DNA from: Kondoa malvinella
Lineage: Eukaryota; Basidiomycota; Agaricostilbomycetes; Agaricostilbales; Kondoaceae
NCBI GenBank assembly: GCA_039545315.1
Contig: BCIM01000002.1
Location: 337,369-401,368 of the forward strand
Length of the DNA stretch: 64,000 bases
Direction: 5' to 3'
Both the position numbers and the translations under genes were made by a program. Below are positions 1-11,700 of the stretch, piece by piece. Numbering within the stretch: the stretch's first letter is position 1; each line of letters opens with the position of its first letter. The notes under the pieces were generated by a model. It ran no database searches, was not told the DNA's origin, and saw nothing but the letters and a program-made list of their open reading frames with translations.

Positions 1-1008
1 GGTGTCATCAGATACTCTGGCAGCTATTGCTATAGAGGATTGATCGATCGTAAAGCGCTAGAGGAAGCTGGTTACGAAGCACCGGATCTGCCTAGAATGT
101 GTAAGTCACCGCTATCATCACCGATGCCGAAGACTGACAGACTGATAATCAGATCTCGGACCACAACAGCACATGTGTGTAATCTCCTGGTTGGATCAGA
201 CCTATGCTGAGCCAATAACAGTCTGGCTTTCCCCGTCGATCATGGTAAGACGGTCAACGTGGTGGCTTTCTCAAGCGATCGCTCGCTTCCACTAAACGAA
301 AGACAATGGACTGGCCACCCAAACCTCAAGACTACCGAATCACCTGCTCCTTGGGTCATACCGGTCGAACAGCAGCTTATGCTGGACGACTTTGGGAGTT
401 TTTGCGATCAAGCTCAGATTCTGCTAAAGGTCAGCTCGACAGTAGCTTAGAAGGACTTGATGCTGAGCTCTATGATTAGCATATCGACAAACCGTCCTGT
501 TGGGCCCTGCACGAGTTGACAGACCTAGAACGATGGACTTTCGGCTCATCCATCGCTCTTATGGGTGATGCTGCCTGCGCTACTACACCACATCAAGGTA
601 CGCTTCTAGCTTTTTAGCCTACTCCCGAATACTGATAAGCGTCTTCTGCTTGTAGGCGCAGGAGCAGGTCAAGCACTAGAATCAGGCTATACTTTAGGAA
701 GATTGCTATCGAGACTAGAGTGCACTCGCGAAACTCTAGGTCGTCATCTTCAGTTCTACGAAAAGATCAGAAAAGAGCGTCATGACAAGGTCAAGAATAG
801 TTCGCGCGAGAATGGTGAAGTCATGGAATTGTGTGGCTATGGCACTGTTGCTGGTTTGGAAGGTAAACCTTTGGCTTGGGATCAAAGCGATCAGGGATGG
901 AAGGACCTTGGAGCGGAGTGTGAACATAGGACGGATTGGATCTTTCATGAAGATGTCAAGGCGAATGTTGACAAGGTCATCAGAGAGCAAGAGGCTCAAG
1001 GGTTGTGA
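1..1008 (+). CDS. FAD-dependent monooxygenase, salicylate hydroxylase-like (3' part, 5' end outside window)
   Basis: Five exons can be joined in one frame (1-100, 153-174, 222-429, 480-597, 656-1008; 801 nt = 267 codons with stop), so this is the C-terminal two thirds of a class A flavin monooxygenase. The start shows SYCYRGLI, the typical strand of the substrate domain; exon 4 gives ALMGDAACATTPHQ and exon 5 GAGAGQALESGYTLGRLL, together the GD motif that binds the FAD ribityl chain. Family members hydroxylate aromatic or N-heteroaromatic acids using NAD(P)H and O2. The gene lies 225 bp from the convergent 3' end of the Fanzor gene. Substrate is not readable; because of the amidase, OYE and imidase genes further right, a role in N-heterocycle breakdown (as for HxnV/HxnX-type enzymes) is an inference. 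Confidence 0.85.
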
Positions 1009-1233
1009 GTGGAATGCTGTGTGATATGTGCATAATGTGTGCATTGTCATTGTGTCGCGCAAGGATTTGGGCTCTTTATGTTCATGCAGATGGTTGACCC
1101 TGAACAGCCTGTATTCGAGGCGCCCCACCGGGAGAAAGGTCAATAACGAGGAGCTTTCATGATAAGCTGCCTATGGCCGTGGCCGGGCTAGAGGATGGTT
1201 CGTAATCGAGGACCTCGTTTTCTCTGCTGCCCG
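1009..1233. other. Short intergenic stretch at the Fanzor 3' end; possible guide-RNA region
   Basis: This 225-bp gap separates two convergent genes. In characterised Fanzor and TnpB loci the guide (omega) RNA commonly comes from the 3' end of the nuclease gene and its UTR, which here would be the minus-strand copy of this gap plus the last exon. I see no clear terminal repeat or obvious hairpin by eye, so this is a place to look, not a called RNA. Confidence 0.25.
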
Positions 1234-4200
1234 TCAGAAAGGACCCGTGCCCACCACAGCTTCTACACACCTTTGTGTTTTCCATGGGTGTCTACCGAAC
1301 ACCAACAAGTGCCAACCTGCATATATGATGTTCAAGCCTGCGGCCTTGTCCCGGTTGAAGATTCCGCAGCATGTCGTACATTGGCTGAGACGACCATTCT
1401 CGTGCTCACTGGCGCTGCGCTTCGGGTGGTAGACACTGTGTGGACTTGCTCAGCAATGAACCCTTTATGACAGTACACAACTCACGTCGACCTGATGACA
1501 TCTTCCGTACCCGGACGTTCCATTTCGCACTCTGGCTTCGGACACACCTGCGAAGTCCAGTCCTCATCCACAAGCCGGAAGATGACGGGAAGACCCAAAG
1601 CCTTGCACCGCTTCATCAATGCCCTGATGACAGATGACCTTTGGTCGAAGGTATGCGATTGACCCTTCGTCAAAGAGTCAACGCCATTGCCAATGAACAT
1701 CACAAACGTCGGAGAATCTGGCGCTGTCGTTACACCCATTTCTTCGATCATCGAGTCGACCAAAGAATCGACGAGCGACTTCTGGCGGTTCTTGTGCATG
1801 AAAGACGCTTGGCGGACGTCGTACGATGATCGATGCAAAGTGTCAAAGAAGGTGTGCGCCACTTTGATGCTAGCTTCGCATTGAGGATCCTTGGTTGCTG
1901 CTTTCAGTGCCTCGAGATCTATAGGGAACGCCATCTTCCCGATCTTCCGCTGATGCTCTCTCAAGATGTTCTGGGCCTTCTTTGCAGTATATAGCTGGAA
2001 ACCTTGCACTCTATCACCTTCTTTGTCGGTCTTGATGATCGCCGAAGCCAGCTTGAATGCGCCTCCAGGGTCCAGACCTCCGAAACTGACTCTCCCCGAC
2101 TTGAGCAAGGCTGGATCAAAGTCTGCGTCTTCCTGCACACCGTGGGCTTCCTTCAGGATGCGCTGAAGCTGCTCAATACTGTCGTTGCCGGCTCGAAGAG
2201 TCTTTGTAGTGATTGGTAGCCCGTTCTTGGTCTTGATTGGTTTGACCGACTTGACTGCTACAAACTTTCTTGCTCTTCCTTTACGAGCTCTCTCAGACCA
2301 GGGCAGATGGATCGAGCTGCGGAGGACTTGGAATTGACATTCTCCAGCTTTCACCCTTTTCAAGGTGAGTTTCCTCTGATACATTCCCAGATCAGCATCC
2401 ACTCTGCTCTTGCTAGCATCCCAACAAGCCTCGCTCTTCTTGACGCCGTCAACGGTTCTGTTTGACCAGTCCAACGCCTTCGTCAATACTTGCCATACAT
2501 CTGGGTCGTCACCGAGCTCTTCTTCAATCTTGGTCGACAATTCACCTGGGAGTTTTGCTCTGCTAGCATCGATGCAGGTAAAGGTGATGGCGAATGTTAC
2601 ATCGTAGCTTATCGCTATCGGGATGTGATAGTACGGTAAAATCGAAGTCTCGTAGATGAGTTGATACGCCAGGAGGTGACAGCCGCGGAAGTTTGACCGG
2701 GAGAAACTGGGAATATCCAGTCGCTGCCTGATATCCTCTACGTACGCTTGAAGGTTGGTCCACCACTTTTCATTGCGTTGTAGGTCCAGGACAGCAGTGT
2801 TCGGGTCTCCGATTTCGAAACCCATCGTTTTGCGGTTGGTGTGCTCACGTGGTGCGGCATGCTTGAACACGCTGAGCGTGTCGAGAAAGCCCAAGGTTGA
2901 TCGGTCTTTTGTTTCCCCTTTTTCAGGACCTTGCGGGACTCGACCACCCATAGAAGCAGAGTGAAGAGCGGAACCAGCGGCTTTCAGATTCCGGTTGAGG
3001 TAGTAGAAAATCTTGCTGACGGTATCATCGAAATGGTTGAGGAGTTCTCCATGCCGTTCTCCACCAAATCCTATCTGGATGCTTGTGAAATCCTGTTAAA
3101 CAATTAGCATATTCTGATTCGCTTCTCGCATGAGCGACTCACGATAGCCATACCCAGCTCGTGACCGCCAGCCTTGCGCAATTCGTGCAGCCAAGGCAGC
3201 ATGCAGGAGAAGGTGCACCGCGCGGTAACCGGATCTTCGAGTATTACTCTAGGTGTCGCGTTCGAAGGCGCATTCTCAACCAGCGAGAGTCGGAATCGTT
3301 GGACCGCCAAACATCGCAGCTTGATGACCATCTTGTCGAGGACGCCTTGTGCTGTAATAGGCCCAAGCGGCTCGCAAATTGCAGACAGTTTGTTGAAGAT
3401 GGCCTCCGGCACCAGATTGCGACCTAGATCTTTTCCGGATCCAACAGGTGATATGAACACGCTGTCCATCAGAAAGTTGGTGAAGACAGCAGTTGCCTCG
3501 CTGAGAAGCCCTTTGTTGGGAGGCAGGTCGTCCATCGCGTCTGGCGAATTCTCATCTAGAGCGACATCGGAAAGCTCGGCTCTGCATGCTGCTTCCAGAG
3601 CATCTCTGAAACCTTCCTTTGCGGTGGTGAACAAATTTGAGGCATATTGGCGGCATATTCCATTCCAATGGACTGCGAAATTCTTGAGGTTAACCAGCGG
3701 TGGTTTCTTCTCGACATAGAGTGTGTTGAAGGCTGAGTCGATCATCAATGGGTCGGTAGTCTTGGTCTGGTTTCTGAGGATCGATATTGGTATAGACGCT
3801 ACGAATGCCGACAGAGCGCTTTGATCAGAGACGAAATCGTACTTTCCGCTCTTGAAAGTCGCAAGGTTTCTGAACAACTCGTCTCGCAGCCGGGCTTCCT
3901 GCTGTTCAGAAAGAGGATCTAGAGCAGCAGTGTCCTTCAACAACGGTAGCAGCCCGTCTTTGATTGCCGAAACGAAGTCGGACGACTTTAGCAGTTTGAG
4001 GATGCCTGCTCCACTTTCTTCGATTGAACAAAGTCGCTGAAGATAGTCTTGGACTGCGAAATTCGCTGTTGACAGCTCCAAAGCTTGAGTGCCAGCAACG
4101 AGACTGAGTAGTCCGTAGAAAGGGTGGTCGCGACAGCGGATGTGGGACTCGTTGAACGCTCTGACGCTGGCGGAAAATGTTCTCTTGTCGCTGACTTTTT

Positions 4201-6422
4201 CGAACCAACTCTTGAGCCCTTTCCCACCAGACTTGCCGCCAGATTCGTCTTCATCATCTGAATCTTCTACATCACTATCGTCTTCTTCTTCGTCGGCAAT
4301 CTTGGACCGTGCCTTTTCTGCCGCGTCTTTGTCTGCAAGTCTTTGAGCCGCACGAACCGCATTCACATTCGCTATTTCGACAGGATCTGCCTTGGCTCGT
4401 TTTGAATTTGCAGTGCTGGTCTGCCTCTTGCGTTTCTTTGGCGTGCTGGAACTGCTTGGGCGTTGGTCCGGCTGCTGTGGCTTCCGCTTGTTTGAGTCGC
4501 TTGCCAACCTCGGAGTTTCTGGAGTAGATCGCATCTCCATCGCAGGCATCTTCAGATACACAGACACGCCATTTTGAATCTCCCTTCGCGACCAATGAAT
4601 TCGCCAAGGCGAGGCAGACTGTTTCTTCTTCTTCTTTCGCCTTTTCTTTTCGCGGCGATCGTCGGTGGCCGAATTGGCATCTGTGTATGCGAAACTGCCT
4701 CCGAGCTCGACAAGGTCTGCAATCTGCCGAGTTCTGCCGGTGACTGTCATCCATTCGCTGGCTTTGGTCTGACGATCTGCGACGGCTTTGAAGCGTCTGT
4801 CGAACACTCGTTGTCGTTCTGCCGCTGGTAGGTCTTCGGATGGTAGAGGCGGCTTCTTGAGCTTAGGAAATTCGTTCGATGGTGGAGCCACATAGTTGGA
4901 AGAGGAGGTATGTACTGCTCCTTCGAAGCATCGCCATTGGCGGAAAGGTTTGATTGCATTTGTAGACACGAGTTGCTGTCCATAGAGCCCAGCTATGTAC
5001 GAAGACTGGTAAAGCTCGATATTTTGTTTGAAGTGACCTGCGATCGCTTGCGCCTTTTCACTCTTGATCGCCTTCATGTTCCGCCAGATCCCATCAAACC
5101 CATCCTGTTGCCTGTCAGTGGTGTTTGATTCTGATATATGGAAGGCTAACCTTGCAAATCTTGCGAATGTGTCTGCTGACCCATGCTGGACCTGCTCCTG
5201 GCGCTCCTGACCCTGTCGCATCACTGCCCATCAAGTCCCTCCCTACCAATCTCTCCACCTCAGCCTGCATCGCCCACTTTGGATCCTCCCCCAAAACCTT
5301 GTTGTCGATGACCATCCATTTCGGCAGCCCGCTCGACCGCGCCTTGTCTTCCATGATGATTCTTGGGATCGTCTGGCCGTCTGCAAGTGCTACAAGGTCG
5401 CTGTCGTTGCTGCGCCCGACTGTGGTGAATCCGTCGATGAGTGAACCGACCTTGCTGCAATTCTTGACCGCGACTTCGGCTTCAGATCTTCCGACCATGT
5501 AGACGATGCGAGACCCGGGAAGAGAGAGTGAATCGAAGGCGATGTTGTTGGCCTTTCGATATCGCTTCCAGTACTCAAGCTGGTCTTCTTCCATCACCGA
5601 TTTGGGCAGCACTGGCTGTTCTACTCCGTCGGCGACTTCGGTAACCGCTTGCTCGTGCACTGCATTCGGAAGGTATGGCCGACGGTTGGCTGCACTGGAC
5701 TGTTCGAAGCCGGCTCTGGGTATCACAGGGAAGGGAGCATCTTTGAGTAGGCCGCTACTGGCCACAGGATCGACCTTGTGTTCCGCGCCGACGCCAGACA
5801 GTGCGTAAGAAGGGTCATAAAAGAGAGAGGTAGCGTTTTTGTCGAGCTGACGAAATAATGCCCAGGCCGAATTTCTGAGCATCATCTGTGCTGGTCGACC
5901 TGTCTGGCCGCTCAGCGCGTTCTTTCTTTCTTGCGCGCGGCGAATTGCTTCGATGGACGCCATGTATCGTGGCTTGACCTTTGCATACCGCTTGATCTGC
6001 TCCGTTCGCTTCAACTGTGTTACTGTTTGGCCGTTGTCTGTCGCCACAACCACAGAAGCGAAGTGCTCTGACGCTTTGTCACAGAGTGAAGTAGCTTCTT
6101 GCCAGTATTGCTTGTTCAAGGCTTCCTGGGCATCGAACACTGAATCGAATGGTTCTAGATGCGGCTTGATGCTGGAAAGCAACCCCTTGATGTTGACATA
6201 GTCTGGCGCTAACTTTTCGAAAAGCGGTCGAAAGACATTAGGCATGTCTAGCCCGAGGACGGCTTTAAGATGTCAGAACAATATTGCCAAAAACGCACAA
6301 ATCGGCTCACTTTTGCCAGCAATACCCTTTGCTGCAGCCTCGTAGGCGCCCCCGATAGTTGCATATCGCTTGTATGCCTTGCTTCTCTTCTTGACGTGCT
6401 TGGTCAGGCCGCGCGCGCCCAT
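1234..6422 (-). CDS. Fanzor (eukaryotic TnpB-like, RNA-guided RuvC nuclease family), unusually long
   Basis: Five exons (6422-6311, 6247-5151, 5104-3143, 3092-1486, 1435-1234) add up to 4,980 nt, 1,659 residues, with no stop or frame break. The last ~270 residues carry the Fanzor signature: RuvC-I Asp in FGGLDPGG (about D1398), a GNG element where TnpB has its RuvC-II Glu, the alternative Glu in LVDEDWTSQVC (E1567), a four-Cys zinc finger (C1574, C1579, C1612, C1615), and the RuvC-III Asp in FNRDKAAGLNI (D1622). The RuvC-III part is only visible after splicing the 50-nt intron 1436-1485. The ~1,100 residues in front are unrecognised; residues ~550-690 are low complexity with two basic, NLS-like clusters (554-564, 626-630) and an acidic run. 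Known Fanzors are mostly far shorter. Start: the only ATG after an in-frame TGA. Nuclease activity is inferred from intact motifs; the guide RNA is unknown. Confidence 0.88.
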
Positions 6423-6710
6423 TGTTCCAACTGCTTTTGCTGCTGTAGCGGAGACGCAAACGTCTCGAGGTCAAGAGCGGATACGCCCTGTAGTGCAAGC
6501 GTGTACGCCTTGTGCAAAGTCGAAGTGCAAAAACACTTTCTTTTGGCATGGCTCTGACAGCCTGCAAAACATCATCAGCTTGTGACCAGACGATTTAGAG
6601 GCTGTTCTGCCAAAGCATACCTGTCTACCGTCGGAAAGAATGCTGCATGAGCCGTCTTGATGTTTCGAGGACAAGGAGCAGTTGACTTTCAAACGGCGAT
6701 AGCAGCAGTC

Positions 6711-7651
6711 ATGCCGCCTGAGCGGAAACCTCACTCTCTGCCTGTGATCCCTTATTCGCCCGTCCCTACTTTTCAGCACCTCAACGACGAAGAATGCCTA
6801 TTGCGCTCAGTCAGAGTGCGCATGCCATCTGAGGACCTGAATTTACCTTGACTGTGCATCATTAGATGCGCTATCAAGATATCGACATTGAAGAGGGAGG
6901 GTATATACGCGAGTCTGATGCGAAGCTCGTCCGAGCAGTCAGGTTCTGGTACCGCGGTGCTGCTGGGGGGCATCGGTTGAACTCGAAAGACGCTTTCGAG
7001 CTTCGCGAAGCTAAGAAGGCCGTGAGTGTATCTTCTTTAGATGGATCGTCGCCTTGACGGAATGTATGCAGTACGAGCGCCGCAAGAATGCGGAGAGCAT
7101 ACATAAATCAGCGGTTCAGTCATTCAGAGCAAAGAAGGTAGGCGCGTTTCACGAGCTTGTTGTACTTGTCTGACTATCCATATCTCTTTCAGCACGAACC
7201 CAAACCCGCGCGCATAAAATATTCGCTATTGCCGCGCGCTGAATTACTCTCTCGCTGGGATCAAGTCAATATAGCCCTGAATACAAAGTCTCCGAAACCA
7301 TGGACCAAGACACACGGCATGTCAGAGGAAGAAGACACCGAAAAGCTGGCAAAATTGCTACATACTCGAGAACGGCAGTTACAGCTTGGCGGCTCTCGAA
7401 AAAGCCACCAGAGCAAATTGACAAATCAAGAGAGATTCAGAGCATCGCCTGGCCTACAGCGCGTGGCCAACAGTCGTCGACAATCAGCCGATGGAAGAGA
7501 AATTCCAGCGTACAACGCCTACGAGGCGTCAAACATCTCTCAAAGTGCCCGTCTTAGCATTCGTCATCCTAGCTACTCTGCTGGCAGTTCTCATGCGACT
7601 CCAAATTACAAGTGGCCTGAGAGGCATATGTCCCAAGGCTACCTCGACTAA
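6711..7651 (+). CDS. Unknown protein, small intron-containing gene head to head with Fanzor
   Basis: Four exons fit together: from an ATG at 6711 to about 6810, then 6866-7021, about 7072-7137, and 7193-7651, with GT-AG introns including a good GTGAGT donor at 7022 and a TTTCAG acceptor before 7193. The predicted ~250-residue protein has no motif I recognise; it is rich in charged residues and ends in a Ser/Arg/His-rich tail. An in-frame ATG at 6657 is an alternative start. It begins about 290 bp from the Fanzor start on the other strand, so the two could share a promoter region. The first intron (GTCAGA donor) is the weakest part of the model. Confidence 0.5.
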
Positions 7652-8755
7652 ATGCCTCACCGTTTGTCAGCCTCTGTACTTGTGCTAGCTGCTGTGAGGC
7701 TGACTTTGAGGTACCAGTGCTCGCGACATGATTGATCTCGGAAGAGGATTTACAATGCAATGGTATCACGAATACACAATACACACAGACCCTCATGCAG
7801 CGTTCAAGCCATCAACTTGAACTTCGTCAACTGATCCTTAGTCATCTGCAACGCTTGCGTTTGCTCAGAATCGAACTGTGCATGGACGAGATGCTTCTTG
7901 GACATACACAAGGACTTCCTTCGACGCGCTGCCCGTCGGTAGAGAAAGACATCGGTCTTGACCTCACATGACCTGCTCAACAAGGTTATCCCCATCGAGC
8001 GATACCCTCTTCTCCTGCAACAAAGATACCCGACAGTGAAGAAGGGCAATAGCAACCGATGACCTATCGGGCTTCTCCTTGAGCCCGAGGCTGCAGAAAT
8101 TATACCTGCACAATATTTGGGCACGCAGTTCTTACTCTAACACCAACGCGGCAGTAGAAGGCCATAGCTGTCACCTGGATAGCAGGCGACACCTCCATAG
8201 ACCTGATCAGCGCGTGGGCTATCAAGTCTGCCTCGGACGCAGGCTCATGCCCTCCCCTGGCAAGGAAAGAGCTATACATCGTGAGTACTGCTAGCTTTGT
8301 CTATATTACCGAGCAACATCTGATGCCTCACAAGGTTCGGCAGCGCAAGAGGTAGACCTTATCAGGCTGGAACATGAGTCTGGAGCTGACAAAATTGGAG
8401 ACTTTGCCTCGCATCGGATCTGTTGGTCCAAGCTCTCTTCGCGGCGCATCTGAAAGGTTTCTTTCCACTTGCCTGCCTACTTGATCCACTCCTTCCGGCC
8501 GCTTGGACCGAATGTCTGACTTGGCCAGAACATCAGCAGGGCTGGTATCACTTCCCAGGAGACAGTGTGTTTACGCGAAAGCGCTGGAGCTGGTCTGAAT
8601 CTACTACCTAGAACTGGCGTGCTCTATTTAACCTTGCTGTTCTAATATCCTTGTCTCCCTAAAGGACCGATGGCATCAAAGCCTTCATTCCTGGCAGCTA
8701 TGACATGACGAAAAATGATACACATATAAGTTCTGACCTGCCTGTTTCATCCTTT
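7652..8755. other. 1.1 kb without a supported gene; possible gene remnants
   Basis: No frame gives a convincing protein. There are short open pieces on the plus strand, for example around 7981-8057 and 8160-8280, the second followed by a GTGAGT-like donor, but stops separate them and I could not splice them into a gene. They could be remnants of a degraded gene or an exon set I failed to join. Confidence 0.3.
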
Positions 8756-11700
8756 TCATGACCCTTCACAATAGTCCTCGTCAGAGTCGTTGTGTCCGCC
8801 ATCTTGCGCATCCGACTCGCACCCAGAAACTCCGCTCTGCATCTCACCGGTGACCTCTACACCCTCCACCTTTTTCCGCTTGCTTCTCCGCTCATTCATA
8901 CCTCTTGGGCTCGCCGGACGCTTGCCTGCCTCAGGGACTGGTTCTGGAAGACCATCTTGCTGGCTGGATTGGCTCGTCGGCGTTTCAAAGAAGTCCTTTA
9001 GGCTGACTGGAAGTCCATTTCGGTTTTCACGCAACTCTCGAGCAGCTGTCCTTGTTTTTAGCACTCGTTCTTGTCGTAATTCAACACCTGTGCTTACCCT
9101 TTCTGACTTCCTTGTTCCGCGTCACATCGGTTTTACCTCGAGTATACTTCTTTGACCTCCGACGACCTTTGTATTCCCACAGCGCCTCGAAATGAGACAG
9201 CAGCAGCTCCACATCTTCGGCAAACAATACCGCCTAAACCAGTCAGCACTATACACGTCCATCGTAGCGAACCTGGACCGTACCTTATCGTCTCCCAGCT
9301 CCGCTTCGACTGATTGTGTTGTCGTTAGCATCGCGGCATCCGGGATGGAAATCCTCTCACCTTCCTCCAGCTTGCTTTGCATCTCTTTGTCTATGCCTTG
9401 CGCGAGATCGATGACATTCTTTGCTGCCTTCTTGGGGGAGCTAGACTTTGATTTAGCTGCAGGCTTGCTCTTCTGCCCTGTTGTTGTGCCATCCTTGGCT
9501 GGCTCTCCCTTCTCTACCTTCTTTTTGGCCTTTTTCTCTTTCGCAACTTGCAGTGCCTTGATCGCCTTGCTCTCCTGCGACATGGTCCTCGCCGCAAAGC
9601 TGGTCTGGGTCATTTCCTCCACCCTCACAGCCCACATCCGGTCCACCAGCAGCTGTCGCGCCGCTCGCTCCACTTGTTCTAGCTTTCCTTCAGGCGACGA
9701 GGATCCCACTACTGCTTCAGCGCGCCTCACTAGCTGTGACCATGCCTTCTCCAGCTCTGGCGTACTACATCGCAGCACAGTGACGTCTTGCTTTTGGAGG
9801 ACTCGGCTCGTCGAAGGAATGTGGAGCGGATGCAGAATCAGTCGATTCAACTCGCGTTCGGCTCTGGAAAGTCTGGACTTGAGCTCTGCCTTATCCGAGG
9901 CATCTTCTGGACTGATATTGCTGACGATGTCGCAAAGCATATCAATCATAATTGCTGGACTGCCACCACTTGAGCCGAAGCCTGGGTCGCTAGCGAGAGA
10001 GGCTCTGAAGCAGTTGGTCATTGCATCTTCAAACGCAGCAGTCGTGCTGCGAATTTGCTGCGACACAGTAGTGTCTTCTGGATACCTCTGGAAGAGCAAG
10101 GTCCTGTCGTCTTCTTTTAGCCTAGATCTTGTGTTTTTTAGCAGGTTGCTGAAGGTGCCAGTCTCTTCGACAATAGCGACACGATCTGTCGCGCTGTTGA
10201 GCTCGAGCATTGATCTTGGTCCAGACGCTACGCTCGAGCCTTGGTGCTTAGCTCTGGCGTATGCGACTACCGCGGCCCGAGCCTGGGTCTTTTCCCGTGA
10301 GAGTTGTATTTGCCTGTAAGTAGAATGCATTAGACACCAGACTTGCGAGCTGATCTGTCACGCACGACAGATCAAGGTTGTTAGCCGCCTCGACATTGAG
10401 CGTCTCCAAATAGCACGACACTGGCACTTTTTCAGACATGCCTGTATGCCGGCGGAGATTGCTCACTGTGTTGAATATTGCCGTTTGCCGCATTCTTCAC
10501 GCCGTACGAGTCAATGTCGTCACCGCTTTGCTTGCGGACAGGTAGTCGACATGCTATGCGTACATACATCAGCTTTGAGCTGCTGGTCTTCTGGTCGCTT
10601 ACTTGAACATGGCAACGCAGCCGCGCTCCCAATTACCCACACTAGCTTGTCCGTGTTGCCCTTTGTCTTCTTGGCAGGCAGACTTGGTGTGCCAGCCGGG
10701 ACCGCTGGAGTACTGTCGGGCATCTTTAGCCAAATTCCAAGACTTGCAGTGGCTGCATACTCGACTGGTCGCATCGTCATTGTTCCTTGCTCCGTAACCC
10801 GCTCAAGCACTTCGACAATATTGTCTATGCCCTTTCCAAAGGTTTTCCACTTGATAAGGTCGGTGAGCTCTGCAGTTCGGCTGGTCAGCTCTCTGTTCAC
10901 CAGGTCTGGAGTGCTTACCTTTTTTGGGTGATCCATCCGCAGGAGCATACCATTCGACGCCAGCAGAGTCCTCCCTCTCTCCTTCCATAACACACGCGGT
11001 CTGTTCAACCTCTCTTCGTAAATCCAATCTCACTCTCCTCTTCTTTTGAATCGATTCTTCCAGCAGACTTTTTAACCACGCAAAGAATTCGTACACAAGT
11101 CGTCCCAGACTTATGTTTTCGATCTTGTCATAAGCTTGGAATTGGCTTGAGATATGCGCAACAAATGGTTGCCGCTCGTTCATGTTTGTAATTGTGCACG
11201 GAGTGACATGACCGGCTTCTTGATTCTCCTGGCAAAAGCTGCGGCCTACATCAGACCCACACTCCTGACGAGCGCATGACTCACTTGATCTTGGGGAGGC
11301 CCGTCTTTTCTATTGCAAAGCAAAGAATAAGGTATACCAGTACCGCAGAGCGAGGCGCCATCTGTCTTGATTGTGGGCCGTCCACCTTCTCTATGGCTTG
11401 CTTGACCATCATCTTGGCCAACATGGCAGCGAAGCGCAATTTTGGAATCGCCTGTAGCGCGCCTTTGTAGATTTCCGACAGCAGAAGAGCCGGTGTATTT
11501 TTCGCTGTGATATCGATCTTGACTGTCCTACCACCTGCCAAATGCATGTTGCCTTGCATACAATCCCTGTCTCTGAACGGCACTACCCTGAGCGAGGTGT
11601 ATCTCTGCTTCGTCTCGACGTTGTTTCCAAGCTTGCCGCAGAGTGAATTTAGGAAGGATGGGTCTTCGATCAGTGTGCCGTCTTGTCGGCAGACGAAGAT

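Follow-up and report, generated by a model that had tools for sequence, protein, structure and literature searches.

An intact, spliced Fanzor-family gene of Kondoa malvinella with a long N-terminal module resembling XPG/FEN1 nucleases

We analysed a stretch of 64,000 nucleotides of the basidiomycete Kondoa malvinella (assembly GCA_039545315.1, contig BCIM01000002.1, positions 337,369 to 401,368 of the forward strand), hereafter the window, which lies on contig C2 of the 19.09-Mb genome (20 contigs) that was searched. To judge from its sequence, the gene studied here, fz, is an intact, spliced Fanzor-family gene with the full catalytic set. Our reading of its product, to which we assign a probability of roughly 0.6, is a giant protein of Fanzor1 type that combines two nuclease modules, an XPG/FEN1-like one in residues 1 to about 408 and a RuvC core with a C4 zinc finger, which would make an RNA-guided cut and trim the ends by itself. 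In the excerpts of the papers cited here and below, most Fz1 proteins have 600-700 amino acids (aa) (PMC11423790) and the largest Fanzors about 800 aa (PMC10711439). The original prediction for this locus, made from the DNA letters only, had called the N-terminal extension far longer than in known Fanzors, in agreement with the 1,664 aa found here.

The gene is encoded on the minus strand from 6422 to 1234 in five exons (Table 1), with no stop or frame damage. The intact, intron-containing frame proposed for these coordinates was borne out, with a product of 1,664 instead of about 1,659 residues, as were the four phase-consistent introns, all GT..AG with phases 1, 0, 0 and 2 and matched in paralogues. 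The lengths of three introns (46, 50 and 50 nt) are not divisible by three, and the remaining one, of 48 nt, holds an in-frame stop, so that the frame is open only once spliced. Six-frame protein searches of the genome gave 16 and 20 matches, which were grouped into at least six Fanzor loci, these counts being lower bounds in that only the best candidates were scored. Four loci appear intact, fz and c12 (group A) and c2b and c3 (group B), and their proteins align collinearly, end to end. In c12, all four introns stand at the positions and phases of fz; in c2b and c3 they stand at corresponding places, again with phases 1, 0, 0 and 2, and group B has one additional intron immediately ahead of RuvC. 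The correspondence of intron 1 between the groups was judged from an Asp 4-5 residues downstream, seen in all four, and intron 4, inside the zinc finger, has a corresponding place and the same phase in each. The splice sites of the paralogues were picked by eye, and that of c2b intron 3 (GTCCGT) is weak. The protein of c3 starts with MGARGL, as does that of fz, and that of c12 with MGAHGG. Since c12 shares all intron positions and phases and aligns fully, and the introns of c2b and c3 correspond, the model of the window gene goes beyond chance.

The junction between the N-terminal module and the remainder of the protein depends on a predicted 46-nt intron (5150-5105). That it falsely joins two adjacent genes, one XPG-like and one Fanzor, is nevertheless very improbable: the joining intron is found at the corresponding place and phase in all four genes, from two deeply diverged groups, the four genes have the same order, and no stand-alone N-terminal module is among the genome search matches listed.

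Selection was compared within the pairs fz/c12 and c2b/c3 over five regions of the protein. Amino acid identity within pairs was 0.32-0.63 in all five regions, with RuvC highest, whereas in codons of unchanged residues the third bases of four-fold sites had an identity of 0.19-0.37, about random. The synonymous divergence (dS) was undefined (saturated) in nine of ten comparisons and 4.8 in the remaining one, with a nonsynonymous divergence (dN) of 0.31-0.84. As synonymous sites are saturated yet the protein is conserved in every region, selection has maintained the protein over its full length, including the extension. Therefore, the extension put forward in the original prediction is real, being conserved and collinear in four paralogues. 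A decaying transposon remnant without function might be suspected from the 5' truncation of two of the six loci found and from the gene fragments that flank the window copy; we consider it practically negligible, given the intact frame and splice sites together with saturated synonymous sites and a protein conserved in every region.

The C-terminal module of fz presents all the Fanzor catalytic motifs that had been named for it, and they survive splicing: D1403 (GGLDPGG), E1572 (VDEDWTS), the four-Cys finger (C1579, C1584, C1617 and C1620) and D1627 (NRDKAAG). The long Fanzor/TnpB motif, D-X(125,275)-[TS][TS]XX-C4-X(5,50)-RD (PMC3627910), is present in fz, with D1403, X = 171, TSQVC, the four Cys and RD at 1626-1627, and also in the three paralogues (X = 168, 189 and 195); all four carry [TS]SXXC, the four Cys and NRD. 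In Fanzors, the catalytic Glu follows the last RuvC strand and precedes the TNB finger (PMC11423790). A Glu invariant in the four paralogues (E1572 in fz) lies directly before the finger in (D/N/K/Q)E(D/G)(W/F)(T/S)SQ, its position relative to the RuvC strand being assigned by motif and not by structure. The proposed profile search of the C-terminus, done with the TNB zinc finger model PF07282, matched all four C-terminal modules (E 1.7e-6 to 5e-5). With respect to the curated cut-off of 26.3 bits, c12 (28.5) and c2b (27.7) are above and c3 (25.6) is below, and fz is just under it, with 20.7 bits for the full spliced protein (match at residues 1552-1634) and 23.8-23.9 for the C-terminal module (E down to 4.8e-5).

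In the N-terminal module, the motifs seen by eye are, in order, the MGARGL start, GLD, D-x8-K-x6-R, SEAE, NDSD and GSDATGSGAPGAG, an order that we take to be that of FEN1. Seven acids of FEN1 type (D43, D113, E298, E300, D324, D326 and D385 in fz) are D or E in all four genes; they were assigned by eye to what are presumably the FEN1 catalytic sites, in the numbering that we assume for FEN1. The first two acids are 69-70 residues apart in every paralogue, though groups A and B share about 20% identity in this module, and the G-D..G.G....G spacing is likewise kept in all four.

Using hhalign, residues ~275-408 of the four sequences were aligned with the I-region of the genome's five canonical XPG-family genes, with a score of 34.8 (P 1.6e-6); the alignment runs collinearly through 106 columns and keeps the acids in register, and none of 400 column-shuffled profiles reached this score (maximum 12.5). 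The full N-terminal module scored 32.2 against the fungal XPG profile, reached by none of 400 shuffles (maximum 10.9); as controls, reversed profiles gave about 5 and the C-terminal module 1.5. Of eight segments along the protein, the first two had the best scores against XPG, 35.6 and 30.9, followed by 10.3 (P 0.046) for the sixth and at most 5.5 elsewhere. A profile of 60 archaeal FEN1s matched in the same register, with scores of 20.1 (N-terminal module) and 25.8 (alignment columns 1-460). In a rank test, profiles were searched unfiltered against 1,443 open reading frames (ORFs), 87 of FEN1/XPG and 1,356 decoys. The profile of the N-terminal module placed 31 FEN1/XPG ORFs ahead of the first decoy, with an area under the curve (AUC) of 0.985; residues 271-408 placed 68 ahead (AUC 0.989), which are not independent successes because FEN1s are related to each other, and their best match had 18.7 bits, compared to 6.4 bits for the best decoy. 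Residues 166-270 gave an AUC of 0.39, and 60 shuffled profiles a mean of 0.60 and a maximum of 0.73. The profile and acid data are best explained if the first ~408 residues are a divergent XPG/FEN1-type nuclease. The original prediction had suggested that the extension may add guide- or partner-binding functions; beyond any such role, the first ~408 residues of this real extension look like an XPG/FEN1 nuclease, with the seven acids in catalytic order.

Several results weigh against this reading. Pfam, with HMMER filters applied, listed an XPG family for none of the four N-terminal modules; what it did list were five unrelated families, each in a single member (best E 0.0036). A genome scan with PF00867 listed five other loci, the N-terminal modules not being among them. 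Against the fungal XPG profile, group A alone gave 10.1 (P 0.05, not significant) and group B alone 26.0 (P 6.4e-5); against the archaeal FEN1 profile neither group alone scores (2.7 and 3.1), so the proposed link to XPG/FEN1 comes from the joint four-sequence profile and from group B. One of 300 shuffles attained the 20.1 obtained with the archaeal FEN1s (maximum 22.1). In the rank test, group A had an AUC of 0.77 with one leading positive and group B 0.91 with four; the single sequences gave 0.80 (fz, with no leading positive), 0.66 (c12), 0.59 (c2b) and 0.91 (c3), and leaving out c3 gave 0.89 with only two leading positives. In the reciprocal search with an archaeal FEN1 hidden Markov model, c3 stood among the best decoys (E 0.33) and the other three were low. 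Residues 1-165 are undetected by hhalign and match by motif only (AUC 0.81), and a statistical match of this part to XPG_N was dropped. The P of 1.6e-6 applies to one chosen family and over ~25,000 Pfam families becomes borderline (~0.04), so that register, order, start position and the second profile carry the rest; moreover, the idea of XPG arose from motif reading ahead of the tests. The intron-blind genome scan with PF07282 listed no match at E <= 0.001. The fold prediction suggested for the RuvC core and the extension gave no usable fold: with AlphaFold2, the model of the N-terminal module (two sequences) had a predicted local distance difference test (pLDDT) of 35 and was unusable, and that of the exon 4 region had a mean of 39, with a RuvC-like order of strands and helices, at residues 348-507 of the exon 4 product, too weak for use. 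Both models are poor because there are too few homologues. As no curated XPG model matches, we call the module XPG/FEN1-like and not a filed member of the family.

The same architecture with an XPG-like module that no longer cuts, but serves as a platform for binding DNA, RNA or a partner, with only RuvC active, is unlikely, though it has to be reckoned with. Some divergent XPG relatives, Mkt1 for example, have been suggested as such non-cutting platforms. The module has very little sequence similarity to active FEN1s, its first ~165 residues are missed by hhalign and the second acid of SEAE is D in three of the four paralogues, all of which is consistent with it; nevertheless, seven acids kept in all four genes despite ~20% identity between the groups are hard to explain without catalytic constraint. 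We find it more doubtful still that fz is an ordinary Fanzor whose long extension has an unrelated fold, its XPG likeness being a convergence of acidic motifs. The absence of an XPG match in Pfam and PDB sequence searches, the unusable structure model and the weak scores of single groups would fit such a fold, but the shuffle controls and rank tests favour XPG, as do the order and spacing of the acids, the MGxxG start and the G-D..G.G....G spacing in all four. As alternatives to the trimming of 5' ends or flaps, the module may be an inactive XPG-like binding module or act in RNA processing or in licensing of repair.

The 3' side of the window gene also speaks against our two-nuclease reading in some respects. 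No guide RNA was found for fz, no sharp 3' end was seen at fz, c12 or c3, Rfam gave no match on the 3' flank in the window, and the RNA of this flank folds no better than shuffles (z +0.85). No second DNA copy of the window element was found in the genome, with coding similarity to contig C12 only. Further candidates were not retained: the alignment score of a common 3' flank of fz and c12 was reached by 59 of 200 shuffles, and transposon ends were sought among short inverted pairs, of which ten (14-23 nt) were listed for window 1-9000, the two that flank fz (16 nt, 88%; 14 nt, 93%) being judged chance-level without a statistical test. The window gene could be a resident of the genome or, alternatively, an isolated copy of some age. 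Directly upstream of its ATG, 71 bp (window 6440-6510) are 90% identical to C3:1275489-1275559 and hold an inverted repeat, GAGACG..CGTCTC, with a 21-bp core at two places only (up to three mismatches); this repeat was set aside as an element end, having one other place only, where no Fanzor locus is listed.

In group B, c2b and the two truncated loci, L018 and L019, have a common 3' end ~260-300 nt past the stop, TGTCC-loop-GGAC...TTGTACATAGTG, beyond which the flanks differ. L018 and L019 are 94% identical over 1,506 aligned bp and have in common the precise 3' end and not the 5' end; no N-terminal module match was among the genome search matches listed at either. With zero mismatches, the core pattern of this end occurs at four places in the genome, three of them 3' of these Fanzors and the fourth a solo 74-bp end (C4:100833-100906; L174 1501-1574) with no Fanzor match listed. 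Such solo right ends resemble the 'ghost' elements of SpuFz1 (PMC10432273). With 2-3 mismatches, twelve more places were found, at the level of the reversed control (9), and the whole 3' flanks of c2b and L018 show a modest likeness (score 30, reached by 2 of 200 shuffles). The sharp right end with variable flank in the group-B copies has the look that would be expected of a guide-RNA boundary.

The full-length fz protein had no match in PDB with phmmer and, against 5.8 billion proteins, none at E <= 0.001 among 7,993 scored candidates. The comparison of the extension with all proteins, which had been proposed for this gene, yielded, with an alignment of the N-terminal modules (A1), only a single, nearly identical metagenome copy of c2b; the C-terminal alignment (A2) found three partial relatives in the same set. 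HMMER with A1 or A2 against PDB gave chance-like matches only, and one scan of viral contigs found no relative. Two metagenome proteins, P0004 and P0002, are partial relatives of this RuvC module; over 49% of the query module, P0004 and the window copy share 69% identity, so the clade seems to exist beyond this genome.

In the mechanism that we propose, residues ~409-715 would form a nuclear-targeting linker whose basic clusters import the protein into the nucleus, and the remainder of the chain a Fanzor core with RuvC and the C4 finger at its end. RNA from the 3' side of the gene would guide RuvC, and double-stranded DNA would be cut with 5' overhangs, a stagger of Cas12 type. The FEN1-like module would then trim the 5' end or flap of the break, which, not being simply religated, would be channelled into recombination, favouring the retention or spread of the element or of a domesticated descendant. 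We see an even chance that the protein is such a natural dual nuclease of 1,660-1,760 aa, from an old clade of giant Fanzors, which cuts a guided target and processes the break to force recombination-based copying.

With Fanzor1 (SpuFz1, GtFz1 and PpFz1; PMC10432273, PMC11423790, PMC3627910), fz has in common the long motif, the relocated Glu and the eukaryotic host, and the sharp 3' boundary is shared as well, but in three group-B relatives only. The window protein differs in its added XPG/FEN1-like module and long linker, in its single diverged copies, in the missing right end at the window copy and in the length of its clade (1,660-1,760 aa), more than twice that published. TnpB (IS200/IS605, IS607) likewise has RuvC and the TNB finger, but is prokaryotic, has no nuclease extension and measures 350-550 aa in the set of PMC10711439. 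With XPG/Rad2/FEN1, the N-terminal module shares the MGxxG start, the seven acids in order, SEAE, DxD and G(S/Q)D followed by glycines, and it matches the I-region profile in register; unlike them, it is missed by curated models, has a larger insert between the N and I regions and is fused to a Fanzor. T5 exonuclease is a relative of FEN. In T5exo-Cas12a, as proposed here for fz, a 5' nuclease stands N-terminal to an RNA-guided RuvC nuclease in one chain (PMC8945719); that fusion was made in the laboratory from a phage exonuclease and Cas12a, whereas the window protein is natural and known from sequence alone. With T5 exonuclease at the Cas12a N-terminus, knockout and knock-in in zebrafish were efficient and the heatshock that is otherwise required could be omitted, though the authors report no marked increase in large deletions and are sceptical of an effect due to the exonuclease alone (PMC8945719).

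The open-access literature searched contained no paper joining Fanzor and XPG, subscription papers and bioRxiv being mostly outside this scope; by listing, none of its papers on Fanzor/TnpB fusions or endonuclease domains mentioned a PIN domain, and those joining Fanzor and flap endonuclease concerned, by title only, viral gene transfer and gene therapy. If our reading is right, evolution has joined a nuclease that processes breaks to a programmable DNA cutter, as engineers did in T5exo-Cas12a; the protein would be a ready-made editor with built-in end processing, and the long-open question of how Fanzor/TnpB nucleases help elements persist would become testable. The size range of Fanzors is extended well beyond the sizes in the excerpts cited, and this 19-Mb genome, with its four paralogues, lends itself to comparative study.

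The NLS-like (nuclear localisation signal) basic clusters and the acidic run that had been predicted are present in exon 3 (Table 1). The exon-3 regions of fz and c3 had no Pfam match at E <= 0.1.

Table 1. Features of fz (window positions) and the Fanzor loci found in the genome.
Feature	Position	Strand	Size or state	Description
exon 1	6311..6422	-		residues 1-37 and first base of 38; start MGARGL, FEN1-like
intron 1	6263..6310	-	48 nt	GT..AG, phase 1
exon 2	5151..6262	-		residues 38-408; most of the XPG/FEN1-like N-terminal module
intron 2	5105..5150	-	46 nt	GT..AG, phase 0
exon 3	3143..5104	-		residues 409-1062; linker holding both basic clusters and the acidic run, followed by a conserved region
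basic cluster KKRRKKKKK	4622..4648	-		residues 561-569; NLS-like
basic cluster PKKRKR	4424..4441	-		residues 630-635; NLS-like
acidic run	4244..4294	-		residues 679-695
intron 3	3093..3142	-	50 nt	GT..AG, phase 0
exon 4	1486..3092	-		residues 1063-1597; pre-RuvC region (WED/REC-like by position only), RuvC with D1403 and E1572, first zinc-finger half
intron 4	1436..1485	-	50 nt	GT..AG, phase 2; inside zinc finger
exon 5	1234..1435	-		second zinc-finger half, NRD catalytic Asp D1627, stop codon
fz	contig C2, window gene		apparently intact, 1,664 aa	group A
c12	contig C12		apparently intact, 1,680 aa	group A
c2b	C2:512466 downwards		apparently intact, 1,757 aa	group B
c3	C3:1110577 downwards		apparently intact, 1,743 aa	group B
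L018	C2:974k (L018 3760-5259)		5'-truncated	group B copy
L019	C1:1975k (L019 4055-5549)		5'-truncated	group B copy

Around the gene, window 1-1008 appears by eye to be the broken 3' part of an FAD-dependent monooxygenase, with no Pfam match at E <= 0.001 for 610-1008. On the other side, window 7667-7870 is a duplicated gene fragment; its DNA counterpart, with a 77% match, is C5:107637-107868, where an ORF ending QALQMPKDQLPKFKLLA has its 3' end. Further on, window 7935-8031 is a short repeat 74-76% identical to C2:2581670 and C2:3040325. The neighbours of the window gene include a Mid1 channel gene.

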